A program made the translations under genes and the position numbers. From the NCBI GenBank assembly GCA_038882715.1, contig JAVZNR010000005.1, positions 1-64,000 of the forward strand: a stretch of DNA of 64,000 bases, written 5' to 3'. The notes below the pieces were generated by a model, which saw nothing but the letters and a program-made list of their open reading frames with translations, was not told where the DNA came from and ran no database searches. This document shows, one piece after another, positions 45,346 to 50,235 of this stretch. Origin of the DNA: Candidatus Bathyarchaeia archaeon. Lineage in GTDB: Archaea; Thermoproteota; Bathyarchaeia; Bathyarchaeales; DTEX01. Position 1 is the first letter of the stretch, and each line of letters begins with the position of its first letter.

Positions 45346-46401
45346 ATGGTTCTAAGGGTTGGCTTAACATATAACCTCAGGAAGAAAGTTGCCGAACACG
45401 AGGGTTTACCGGAAGACTATTATGTGGAGTTCGATGATGAGAGCACTGTTAACGCTATAGCGTCGGCTTTAGCCTCAGGCGGATGCAAGGTTATAAAGAT
45501 TGAAGCCGACGAGAACGCCTACGCAAAGCTGCGCAGATGTAAGCCGGACATAGTTTTTAATATTGCTGAGGGTCTGCGCGGCGAAAGCCGCGAGTCCCAT
45601 ATACCGGTCATACTGGAGATGCTTGGCATACCCTACACCGGCTCTGGGCCGGCGACTTTAGCCATATGCTTAGATAAAGCCATGACGCATAGAGTTTTAA
45701 GCGCATATGGAGTACCATCACCGAGGTTCCAAGTTTTTAAGCAGACTGATGAGGAACTTGAAGGTAGCCTAAACTTTCCATTAGTTGTTAAACCTCTGCT
45801 TGAAGGCTCAAGTAAGGGAATTAGAAACAGTTCTCTTGTTAAAGATGAGGAAAGCCTTAGGAGACAGGTTTCATGGGTTATAGAAACCTATCATCAGCCA
45901 GCTATTGTTGAAGAGTATATGCCGGGCAGAGAGTTTACCGTCGGATTAATAGGAAACGAGGAGCCCTTCGTTTTACCAATAGTTGAAATACAGCTCGGTA
46001 AGCTGCCAAAGGAGGCGAGCCCAATATATTCTTATGAGGCTAAATGGGTTTGGGATACGCCCGAGAACCCTCTAGATATATTTAGGTGCCCAGCCGAGGT
46101 TCCTCCGGAACTTAACGAAGAAATAAGAGAGATAGCCATTAAGACTTTTAAGATATTAAACTGTAGGGATATATGCCGTATAGACATGAGGTTAGATGCG
46201 GAAGGGACGCCGAGAGTTTTAGAGGTTAATCCGCTGCCCGGTTTGATACCGGATCCGGACGCCCATTCATGCCTGCCTGAGGCGGCTAGAGCAGCCGGCT
46301 TCACGTATGAACAATTAATCTGCACGATTCTCTGGCAAGCCTTAAAGAGATATGGGCTTCAAGATCTCTTCAAAAATAAGCATTTAGTGAAGATCCCATG
46401 A
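45346..46401 (+). CDS. D-Ala-D-Ala-ligase-like ATP-grasp enzyme A
   Basis: 351 residues in the Ddl three-domain order: NIAEGLRGESRESHIP and PYTGSGPATLAICLDKAM early, PLVVKPLLEGSSKGI for ATP binding, and RVLEVNPLPGL for Mg ligands. The family joins a carboxylate to an amino group with ATP. Archaea lack peptidoglycan, and the neighbour is a beta-lysine-forming enzyme, so beta-lysine or another amino acid is a likelier substrate than D-alanine. It is probably co-transcribed with kamA. The 3' end converges with a paralogue 7 bp away. Confidence 0.85.
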   Translation: MVLRVGLTYNLRKKVAEHEGLPEDYYVEFDDESTVNAIASALASGGCKVIKIEADENAYAKLRRCKPDIVFNIAEGLRGESRESHIPVILEMLGIPYTGSGPATLAICLDKAMTHRVLSAYGVPSPRFQVFKQTDEELEGSLNFPLVVKPLLEGSSKGIRNSSLVKDEESLRRQVSWVIETYHQPAIVEEYMPGREFTVGLIGNEEPFVLPIVEIQLGKLPKEASPIYSYEAKWVWDTPENPLDIFRCPAEVPPELNEEIREIAIKTFKILNCRDICRIDMRLDAEGTPRVLEVNPLPGLIPDPDAHSCLPEAARAAGFTYEQLICTILWQALKRYGLQDLFKNKHLVKIP

Positions 46402-46408
46402 TATACCT

Positions 46409-47452
46409 TCATATTGGCGGGAGACTTTTACCAGCCCTCTCGAGGGCGAAGCCAAGTATCTTTTTAATGAAAACCTCAAAAGGTATTCCGGCAGCCCTTA
46501 AGGATCTGGTGAAACCAGCTTCAGGAGAAATGTCGGGATTTGGGTTAACCTCAAGAACATATGGGGTCTCCGTTTTACTTTCGAGGCGTATATCGACCCG
46601 TGCATAATCCCTGCATCCCAACGCTTTGTATGCTTTTAATGCAGCGTTCTCCACCCTACTTTTAGCCTCACCCTTTAATTCTGCCGGGCAAACAGGCCTA
46701 GTTTTAGTGTACTCTTCGCTTTCCTTGAGCCATTTAGCCGCGTAGTCAACTATTTTCGGCTCATCCCTGAAATCAAAGATTATTTCCGATATCGGCAGAA
46801 CAATAGGGTTCTCATTGCCTAATATTGATACGTTAAACTCTCTCCCGCTAACGTATTCTTCGACAAGCGCTGGCTGCCTATATAAATTAACGATGTATTC
46901 TATCTGCCTCCTAAGCTCCGCATGATCTCTAACGAAGCTACGCCGTGATATCCCTATGCTAGCGTCTTCTCTCAGCGGCTTAACTATCAGCGGAAAACTT
47001 AAACCCTCTAAATCTTCGAGGGCGGCCTCATATCCGGCTGCTATACAATAGTTTGGAGTCGATACGCCACATGCCTTTAAGATAGCTTTGGCCAGACCCT
47101 TATTTTGGCATAATCCAAGCGTTAGTGGCGATGATCCAGTATATGGTATCCTTAAGATTTCAAGTATTGACGGAATATGCATTTCAAAGCTGCTATCCCC
47201 CATAAAACCCTCGCAAAGATTTATGACCACATCCGGCTTGTAAGACTTAAGAGCCTTAACAACGTCCTCCACATCGTCTTTAATGGGAAAGAGATGATAG
47301 TGAACATCAAGTTTCTTAAGGGCTTCCTGAACAGCATTTACTTGATCTAAGACTTCTTCTTCAGCCAAATAATCTATTTCTTCGCCTCTCAGCGGCTTCA
47401 CAGGCGAGTTAAACATTATACCGACTTTAAGAGCCAAACTCTGCACTCCCAT
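46409..47452 (-). CDS. D-Ala-D-Ala-ligase-like ATP-grasp enzyme B
   Basis: 347 residues from the ATG at 47452 (MGVQSLALKVGIMFN), which aligns with the start of enzyme A. The frame is open to 47494, but a TATA box at 47494-47502 makes that longer version unlikely. Motifs match its paralogue: NLCEGFMGDSSFEMHIPSIL, PYTGSSPLTLGLCQNKGL, PLIVKPLREDASIGI and YVLEVNPNPDISP. Two divergent copies tail to tail suggest two successive ligations or two substrates rather than redundancy. Specificity unknown. Confidence 0.83.
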   Translation of the reverse strand: MGVQSLALKVGIMFNSPVKPLRGEEIDYLAEEEVLDQVNAVQEALKKLDVHYHLFPIKDDVEDVVKALKSYKPDVVINLCEGFMGDSSFEMHIPSILEILRIPYTGSSPLTLGLCQNKGLAKAILKACGVSTPNYCIAAGYEAALEDLEGLSFPLIVKPLREDASIGISRRSFVRDHAELRRQIEYIVNLYRQPALVEEYVSGREFNVSILGNENPIVLPISEIIFDFRDEPKIVDYAAKWLKESEEYTKTRPVCPAELKGEAKSRVENAALKAYKALGCRDYARVDIRLESKTETPYVLEVNPNPDISPEAGFTRSLRAAGIPFEVFIKKILGFALERAGKSLPPI

Positions 47453-47493
47453 ACGCTTGCCGATTTTTCCTATCCCTTGGAATAACATACGCA

Positions 47494-47534
47494 CTTATAT
47501 TTTCTTACGATCCTAGGGGAGAAGTTTATTAAGG
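47494..47534. promoter_or_regulatory. Divergent promoters between ATP-grasp B and the MFS-kinase fusion
   Basis: Minus strand: AAATATAAG (47502-47494) lies about 45 nt before the ATG at 47452. Plus strand: GTTTATTAAGG (about 47524-47534) lies 35 nt before the MFS ATG at 47564. Both predict short leaders and place the two genes under adjacent control. Confidence 0.45.
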
Positions 47535-47563: not shown

Positions 47564-49399
47564 ATGATGGAAGAGAAACTAAAATCCGCATTTAAAGGGA
47601 ACATTAGAGTGCTGATGGTTAGGGATCTCGCTCTCACAGTTATAGCTGGATTAAGCGGTGGACTTGACATACTATTTGTCAAAGAGGTTCTCGGAGCCGA
47701 TGCAATAGTTTTAAGTACACTAGCATCAATTTGGTCAATAGTCTTTCTAGCCTTCATACTGTTTGGCGGCTGGATATCTGACCAATACAGCCGCAAGAAA
47801 ATGTTAATCGCCGGCATGGCTCTAACCCTGCCGAACCCGTTAATCTACGCTTTTGCACCAGACTGGCAGATAACTGTTATAGCGAACTTTCTCGGGGCTG
47901 TTGGCACAGCGCTCGTTGCGCCAGCCTATGTAGCGCTTTTATTCTCTTCTTCCGAGCAGAAGAGCAGAAGCCGAACGATAGCCGTGATGAACACGGTTAA
48001 CAATATTGCCAACGTATTTATTCCACCAATAGGCGCATCATTAATCCAGACGTTAGGTGGCGGAAAACTGGATTGGCTCAGAAACATCTTCCTCGCCCAA
48101 TTCTTCCTCACATTAATCGTCCTATTTTACACAGCCCGCAACCTCGAAGACAAACCACCATCTATTAGGAAAACATCAAAAAGGCTTACTGAAGCCGTCA
48201 AAGATATTTTTGGGCAAATAAGTAGAGTATATAGGGTTTCAAAGGAGAGAAAAGCCACGGTGTGGCTTTTCTTAGCTTTAACCGGGCCTTGGGCTTGGGA
48301 GGCTGTCGCTCCCTTCTGGATAATATACGCTGCTGAGGTATGCGGGTCGCCGATAATAGTTTTAGGTCTCTTACCATCGGTTTATAGCCTAACAGCGGCC
48401 ATACTGATGATTCCGCTGGCTGAAATTTCGGATAAAAAGGGGAGAAAAACGGTAATATTGTTCACGCGCCCATTTTTATACATATGCTTAGCTCTACTGC
48501 TCGCCGGCGGAACATTTAAAGGGCTGGGTATAATACCATTTGTTCCGCTCGCTGCATGGATATTTAGAGCGATAGGTGATGCCTCCGGCCCCTCCTGGAC
48601 AGCTGTCTCAACGGAAGTTATACCAGAGGAGCTTCAGAGCGAATGGGAGGCTACAAGAGACTTCTTATGGAGGAGTATGGCTATACCAGCCGTTTTGGTC
48701 GGAGGACTGCTATGGAACATTGATCCTCGACTGCCGTTCCTAATGGCCCTCATCGTTGATGGCCTAATAAGATTCCCAACACTAATATATGAAATCCCAG
48801 AGACCCTAATAGTTCACGGCCATCACCATCCAATAGGTCCACACATAATCCTTTACGGATTGCCCGGCGCCGGAAAAACATCTATTGCCCGATTGGTGCA
48901 GAGAGAGCTGTCTTTAGAAATAATTGACGAAAGAATCCTTGAGGAAGAGATGAAGGAGCCGGATAATCACTTAATTCCACTGCCCTTCATGGACAAGGGT
49001 TCTGACGAGAAAGAAATCGAAGAGAAATTAAACTTTGTGCTCTCTAGAGTCAATAGAGCCGCAATTATAGAAGGGGAGCCAGCGCTATTTGCTGCGAAAA
49101 GCGAGGATAGGGGTCTGATAGTTTTGCTGGTTGCGCCTAAGGATGAGAGGGTTAAAAGGGAGATGAGGAAGCATGGTGGACCAGACTTTGTAGTGCTCAA
49201 AAAGATCGAGGATGAGGATCGAAGATTCCTAAAGTTAACGCGCCATCTTTTTGGCGCAGATATATCGAAACTTCCTCCGTTTGATATAGCGATAAACACT
49301 GAGAGGATTCCCCCAGAAAAAATTTTGAAGATTATTAAGGTTCTCTACGGCAACAATGATGGTGAGAACATGACTACTGGAGGCCAAAAAGCAAATTGA
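47564..49399 (+). CDS. MFS transporter fused to a C-terminal P-loop kinase-like domain
   Basis: 611 residues. Residues 15-420 form an MFS permease with the loop 2-3 motif GGWISDQYSRKKM and the equivalent second-half loop EISDKKGRKTV. After a His-rich linker (VHGHHHP), residues 428-600 form a soluble P-loop NTPase: Walker A GLPGAGKTS near 430-440, a central IIEGEPALF, VAPKDERVKREM and a C-terminal FDIAINTERIPPEKI, most like cytidylate/adenylate-kinase-type domains. I know of no characterised protein with this fusion. It might couple transport to phosphorylation or be gated by nucleotide. Confidence 0.82.
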   Translation: MMEEKLKSAFKGNIRVLMVRDLALTVIAGLSGGLDILFVKEVLGADAIVLSTLASIWSIVFLAFILFGGWISDQYSRKKMLIAGMALTLPNPLIYAFAPDWQITVIANFLGAVGTALVAPAYVALLFSSSEQKSRSRTIAVMNTVNNIANVFIPPIGASLIQTLGGGKLDWLRNIFLAQFFLTLIVLFYTARNLEDKPPSIRKTSKRLTEAVKDIFGQISRVYRVSKERKATVWLFLALTGPWAWEAVAPFWIIYAAEVCGSPIIVLGLLPSVYSLTAAILMIPLAEISDKKGRKTVILFTRPFLYICLALLLAGGTFKGLGIIPFVPLAAWIFRAIGDASGPSWTAVSTEVIPEELQSEWEATRDFLWRSMAIPAVLVGGLLWNIDPRLPFLMALIVDGLIRFPTLIYEIPETLIVHGHHHPIGPHIILYGLPGAGKTSIARLVQRELSLEIIDERILEEEMKEPDNHLIPLPFMDKGSDEKEIEEKLNFVLSRVNRAAIIEGEPALFAAKSEDRGLIVLLVAPKDERVKREMRKHGGPDFVVLKKIEDEDRRFLKLTRHLFGADISKLPPFDIAINTERIPPEKILKIIKVLYGNNDGENMTTGGQKAN

Positions 49400-49488: not shown

Positions 49489-50235
49489 ATGGTTTTTTAC
49501 GTGGTTTACAGCGTTCTAAAGGAAAACAGAAGTAGGAGCTTAATACCTAGGCGTCTTAAGGCTTTAGGCTGCAAGCACATATGCGGGTCTTTCTGGGAGG
49601 TGAATGAACGAAAAATAGATGAGGTCTTAAAAGTTGTGGGTGAGAACCAACCAATACTTTTGAGGCGAACTAGGGATATCAGGAAGCCATCGTATGATGA
49701 TGAAGGAAACCTTATTGACTTTGGGAGCCTCATAGTCTTAGTCTACAACCCCGACTGTAATGGAAATTCTAAGATCAAATGGTTGTTAGCTAAGACGCCA
49801 TATATCAGATTGTGCCGATCGGTTTACGCTTTCCCTCAAAATAGCGGCCGGTATGAAAAGAAAGGGGGAATGCCTGGAATAAGCGATCTTTTAATGCTGG
49901 TTAAGGAACATAGTGGGGATACTGCAATATTTTCTAGAATCATAATTGTGAATAGTAGTGAGGTAATGAACACTTTGATTGAAAGAGTTAGGTTAAGAGT
50001 TTTGAAGAAAACAGAAAAGATACTTAATGGTTATAGGGATCTTATAGACGCATTTTACACGGGGCAGCTGGAGAAAAAACATTTCATCGAAAAGGAAAAA
50101 AAGCTTTATAATGAGTTTAAGCATTTAAGGAGATTGATCCTTTTTTACGAAAAATGGCTTAAAATAGATTTCGCAAGGGAAACGATGAAAATTTATTCTG
50201 TGATGAGGAAAACGAGGCTATTAAGGGAAAATTAA
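49489..50235 (+). CDS. Unrecognised protein with two Cas2/ChrB-like alpha-beta modules
   Basis: 248 residues, no confident family. Residues 1-60 (VFYVVYSVLKENRSRSLIPRRL, KALGCKHICGSFWEV) resemble the strand-helix-strand start of Cas2- or ChrB-N-like ferredoxin folds. A similar layout recurs at 78-120 (GSLIVLVYNP, then KWLLAKTPYIRLCRSVYAFPQ). The C-terminal third is helical and very basic. No CRISPR array or cas gene is nearby. Nucleic-acid binding is possible from the charge; function unknown. Confidence 0.6.
   Translation: MVFYVVYSVLKENRSRSLIPRRLKALGCKHICGSFWEVNERKIDEVLKVVGENQPILLRRTRDIRKPSYDDEGNLIDFGSLIVLVYNPDCNGNSKIKWLLAKTPYIRLCRSVYAFPQNSGRYEKKGGMPGISDLLMLVKEHSGDTAIFSRIIIVNSSEVMNTLIERVRLRVLKKTEKILNGYRDLIDAFYTGQLEKKHFIEKEKKLYNEFKHLRRLILFYEKWLKIDFARETMKIYSVMRKTRLLREN

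Follow-up and report, generated by a model that had tools for sequence, protein, structure and literature searches.

An MFS carrier encoded at positions 47564–49399 of the window (the whole 64,000-nucleotide stretch of archaeal DNA that was analysed) bears at its C-terminus a domain derived from a CMP kinase. This fusion recurs in other archaea, and its domain has in most copies lost the catalytic P-loop lysine of the kinase while remaining under strong purifying selection. On balance, the domain has probably been retained as a largely non-catalytic regulatory or structural part of the carrier. Control or support is a likelier role for this tail than catalysis, since the working parts of the kinase are missing in most relatives while the attachment to the carrier has been kept.

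Architecture of the fusion gene

The original prediction described a single frame joining an MFS permease to a soluble domain resembling nucleotide-monophosphate (NMP) kinases, and the frame, its coordinates and the motif GLPGAGKTS (residues 432–440) were all recovered as it had given them. The features referred to below are the following.

47564–49399, + strand: MFS and cytidylate-kinase-like fusion gene, 611 aa, single open frame
47564–48799, + strand: MFS carrier part, residues 1–412, 12 predicted helices (PF07690, 2.2e-32; hydropathy)
47765–47800, + strand: GGWISDQYSRKK, loop between helices 2 and 3, residues 68–79, which from its sequence we take to be MFS motif A-like
48806–48835, + strand: His-rich linker, residues 415–424, genus-specific in the alignments
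48839–49348, + strand: cytidylate-kinase-like domain, residues 426–595 (PF13189; CMP-kinase profile match probability 99.5)
48857–48883, + strand: P-loop GLPGAGKTS, residues 432–440, Lys438 present in 7/18 fused copies
48926–49027, + strand: stretch replacing the NMP-binding lobe, residues 455–488, not conserved and almost deleted in most relatives
49148–49159, + strand: R529 to R532, R529 invariant in 18/18
49274–49306, + strand: PPFDIAINTER, residues 571–581, the best-conserved stretch of the domain, PPFD and AINT invariant in 18/18
49489–50235, + strand: 248-aa gene immediately following the fusion gene in 6/6 fusion-bearing genomes of the genus

Both predicted parts exceed their Pfam cut-offs, with MFS_1 (PF07690) matching residues 30–358 (112.8 against 33.4 bits, E 2.2e-32) and Cytidylate_kin2 (PF13189) matching residues 432–580 (46.9 against 28 bits, E 4.6e-12); among the 25 NCBIfam models listed for the protein, none was over its cut-off. 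Hydropathy analysis of the carrier part gives 12 peaks, all within residues 21–408, and G68, G69, W70 and D73 of the GGWISDQYSRKK loop are invariant in the 14 fused copies that were aligned. The charge pattern of the loops is mostly positive-inside, so the C-terminal domain would lie in the cytosol; the acidic loop that follows helix 10 breaks the alternation expected for cytosolic termini. A 13th, weak hydropathy peak falls at 506–524, inside the soluble domain. AlphaFold2 models built from six sequences had a mean pLDDT of 34.2 for the whole protein and 38.4 for the domain, and both were discarded. The His-rich linker that had been predicted is restricted to the window's genus (6/18 copies), other residues occupying this place elsewhere.

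The kinase ancestry of the domain is supported by PF13189, which matches all 18 fused domains (E ≤ 0.01), and by profile comparisons, in which 17 stand-alone CMP-kinase-like proteins gave a probability of 99.5 and a second stand-alone paralogue one of 98.9; a chance motif was rejected. The fused domains thus share the fold family of archaeal CMP kinases (PF13189/TIGR02173), but they differ from them in being linked to a carrier, in often lacking the lysine and in having mostly lost the acceptor lobe. With 45.4 bits against a required 102.1, the domain of the 611-aa protein also falls short of the TIGR02173 (d)CMP kinase equivalog cut-off. Nor is the fusion the genome's sole CMP kinase: beside SecY and an EMC3-like gene lies a regular CMP-kinase-like gene whose P-loop is intact, and the fusion therefore need not supply this housekeeping step.

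Distribution, single origin and genomic context

The soluble domain was searched initially in 61 near genomes and then in the whole class (256 genomes), where 14 genomes gave strong matches (E ≤ 2e-29). Thirteen of these 14 yielded 14 full-length copies, two of them from G016; G013, in which the two halves sit at separate contig ends, and G014b, truncated where its contig stops, were left out of the counts. Four further fused copies (G577, G550, G500 and G334) came from 398 genomes drawn from the phylum, and searching the classes of these four, in which 3/81 and 1/12 genomes hold the domain at E ≤ 1e-40, yielded no additional fusions. The G334 copy has a long branch and comes from a genome listed at 7% contamination. 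The open frame of the G550 copy (L127:1018-3192, + strand) extends over 725 aa, of which about 140 extra N-terminal residues may be upstream read-through and not protein.

The survey of homologues for the same fusion, as proposed in the original prediction, thus placed both parts in one open frame in 18/18 full-length copies from 17 archaeal genomes, which span three classes within a single phylum. As the junction is uninterrupted in all of them, an assembly error at about position 48830 is ruled out, and so is the possibility that the two parts are always separate in homologues. The stretch 47564–49399 occurs once in its own genome (1.64 Mb, 22 contigs). Within the window's genus, the fusion was found in only 6 of the 11 genomes examined and is therefore accessory.

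In a tree built on the carrier part, with two truncated copies and 15 unfused relatives among its 35 rows, the fused copies all group in a single clade (support 100/100), and the domain would have been captured a single time, the donor being an archaeal CMP-kinase-like protein. The sole unfused row within this clade, G014c, has a long branch and ends where the linker would start; a search for a domain remnant behind it gave no convincing match in the locus, the best one (E 0.073) covering the carrier's own end. G014c may have lost the domain or may represent the original state, and since this domain-less protein sits inside the fused clade, the carrier may work without the domain.

The 248-aa gene that follows the fusion is possibly co-transcribed with it and gave no convincing Pfam match, the best E being 0.027 in one of 6 members. 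Upstream of the fusion lies a convergent pair of D-Ala-D-Ala-ligase-type ATP-grasp paralogues (45346–46401, + strand, and 46409–47494, − strand), which is adjoined by a lysine-2,3-aminomutase-like radical SAM gene. For G016a, G028 and G011, the neighbours were viewed as sequence starts, and the one G011 gene among them that was searched gave no match. The flanks vary by lineage: the window's genus has ATP-grasp genes, whereas a Holliday-junction resolvase and a gene resembling integrases flank the fusion of the leucine group. Because of these differences, the neighbourhood was rejected as a clue to the solute. The nearest solved carriers by sequence are a QacA-type antiseptic resistance protein, EfpA and NorA (E 1e-5 to 5.5e-4); this similarity is weak and does not extend beyond the N-terminal half, which is too little to deduce a solute from these drug exporters.

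Catalytic residues and selection

In the CMP kinase of T. thermophilus, Lys15 of the P-loop forms a bridge between the donor and acceptor phosphates (PMC7259600). Residue 438 over the 18 fused copies is Lys in 7, Arg in 1, Gln in 1, Leu in 8 and Val in 1, against a lysine in 32/35 stand-alone CMP-kinase-like proteins (Thr in 2 and Arg in 1 of the others). The lysine alone is an imperfect marker, since it is missing from these 3/35 stand-alone relatives, which may be active, and is replaced by Cys in 10/10 copies of the second paralogue. This latter cytidylate-kinase-like protein (G000:C3:12492-12764, L066; copies L037 and L058–L065) reads GYLGSGCT in 9 copies and GELGAGCT in L037, and its gene lies in G005 between glutamyl/glutaminyl-tRNA-synthetase-like and lactate-racemase-like genes. 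The P-loop is intact in 6/6 copies of the window's genus, the sole variation being A/S at 436, and the G011 copy likewise displays a complete Walker A motif, GKT included. In G577, G550, G500 and G334, both the lysine and the threonine are gone, as is the first glycine in three of them.

None of the 46 columns of the stretch corresponding to the NMP-binding lobe is invariant (14 copies), and over the 18 copies it shortens from 36 residues, in the window's copy, to 8–11 in the leucine and valine lineages. Conservation is found elsewhere: G437, L522-V523-A524, R529, E549, D552, D566, PPFD and AINT are invariant in 18/18, and a basic residue is kept at 560 and also at 553, except for one His. The best-conserved stretches (VLLVA and PPFDIAINT) belong to the C-terminal half of the domain, outside the active site. 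The active-site arginines given for a bacterial enzyme in PMC3603445 offer no safe mapping to the fused domain.

Eight pairs were run for dN/dS, three of which gave no domain ratio owing to saturated synonymous sites. The lysine-less domains gave 0.059 (G014a/G018) and 0.034 (G017/G020), with 0.086 and 0.041 for their carrier parts, and the lysine-bearing domains gave 0.078 (G000/G009), 0.080 (G000/G002) and 0.039 (G005/G006), with 0.068, 0.061 and 0.110 for the carrier parts, all these ratios being rough because several of the remaining dS values are high. The lysine-less copies are under strong purifying selection, and the domain is no decaying remnant.

Candidate roles of the domain and known systems

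An active kinase could trap an imported solute by phosphorylating a nucleoside, a nucleotide or another compound on entry, and its family ancestry, the complete Walker A motif of the window's genus and G011 and the basic residues at 553 (His in one copy) and 560 speak for such an activity. Phosphorylation of an incoming solute, which the original prediction had put forward, is nevertheless very improbable and finds no support in the comparison: the lysine is absent in 11/18 copies, the acceptor lobe holds no invariant residue, the nearest solved relatives of the carrier are drug exporters, and the metabolic neighbours are not common to the lineages. The differing neighbours, missing lysine and variable lobe hence give no pointer to a solute-phosphate pathway. 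A domain that binds ATP/ADP (or CMP) and switches the carrier with no phosphate transfer would agree with the lysine kept in 7/18 copies, with the invariance of G437 and R529 and with the P-loop of the window's genus, unchanged apart from residue 436, but the losses in G577, G550, G500 and G334 imply that gating is not the common mechanism. We regard it as a rather unlikely general account, and nucleotide gating appears plausible, from the sequences, only where the P-loop is retained, in the window's genus and in G011. Its narrower form, in which an ATP/ADP-sensing gate in the window's genus would couple transport to energy charge and the nucleotide site would be dead in sister lineages, is tentative and unlikely. 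A pure scaffold, a domain that needs no ligand and holds the carrier stable or in oligomers by folding against its cytosolic loops, would suit the concentration of conservation in VLLVA and PPFDIAINT, away from the active site, but leaves the intact P-loop of the window's genus unexplained, and we consider it quite doubtful.

A largely non-catalytic regulatory or structural part accords best with these observations taken together. On this reading an MFS carrier, distantly efflux-like, bears at its C-terminus, which would be cytosolic, a CMP-kinase-derived domain. Most lineages lack the catalytic lysine, acceptor (NMP) binding has presumably gone from the domain, and its role would most likely be to act on the conformational cycle or the stability of the carrier through contact with the carrier or with a partner. 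Since most copies seem to lack the means for phosphoryl transfer and yet preserve the domain, their common function would hardly depend on it. In the window's genus, where 6/6 copies keep the P-loop, ATP/ADP binding may serve as a signal. Several observations weigh against this reading, namely the intact P-loop of that genus and of G011; the retention of R529 and of basic residues at positions 553 (with a single His) and 560, which makes nucleotide chemistry conceivable there; the possible activity of the 3/35 lysine-less stand-alone relatives; and the position of G014c inside the fused clade without a domain.

FeoB joins a transporter to a P-loop domain that presumably governs transport, but this is a GTPase of another family, located N-terminally on a non-MFS transporter. 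To our knowledge, drug exporters such as the QacA-type proteins, EfpA and NorA, to which the resemblance is in any case slight, carry no such kinase-like domain. LacS from Streptococcus thermophilus is likewise a secondary carrier with a cytosolic C-terminal domain borrowed from a phosphotransfer system, and this IIA domain regulates transport and is not required for it (PMC10703360). The IIA domain is, however, unrelated and has no P-loop fold, and LacS is regulated by phosphorylation. Its carrier family differs from that of the MFS fusion as well. A regulatory or structural role, by analogy with LacS, would be the best fit for the fused kinase-like domain. The open-licence literature searched gave no description of an MFS and NMP-kinase-like fusion and no characterised protein of this layout, in line with the original prediction, which knew of none. 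A carrier with an enzyme-derived cytosolic domain is in itself a known kind of protein.

MFS carriers are usually viewed as stand-alone proteins, and a conserved kinase-derived fusion departs from that view. It also cautions that one intact Walker A motif is no proof of a kinase. The fold family has been kept while the catalytic lysine was lost, and the occurrence of Lys, Arg, Gln, Leu and Val at one site constitutes a natural series on the change from enzyme to regulator.
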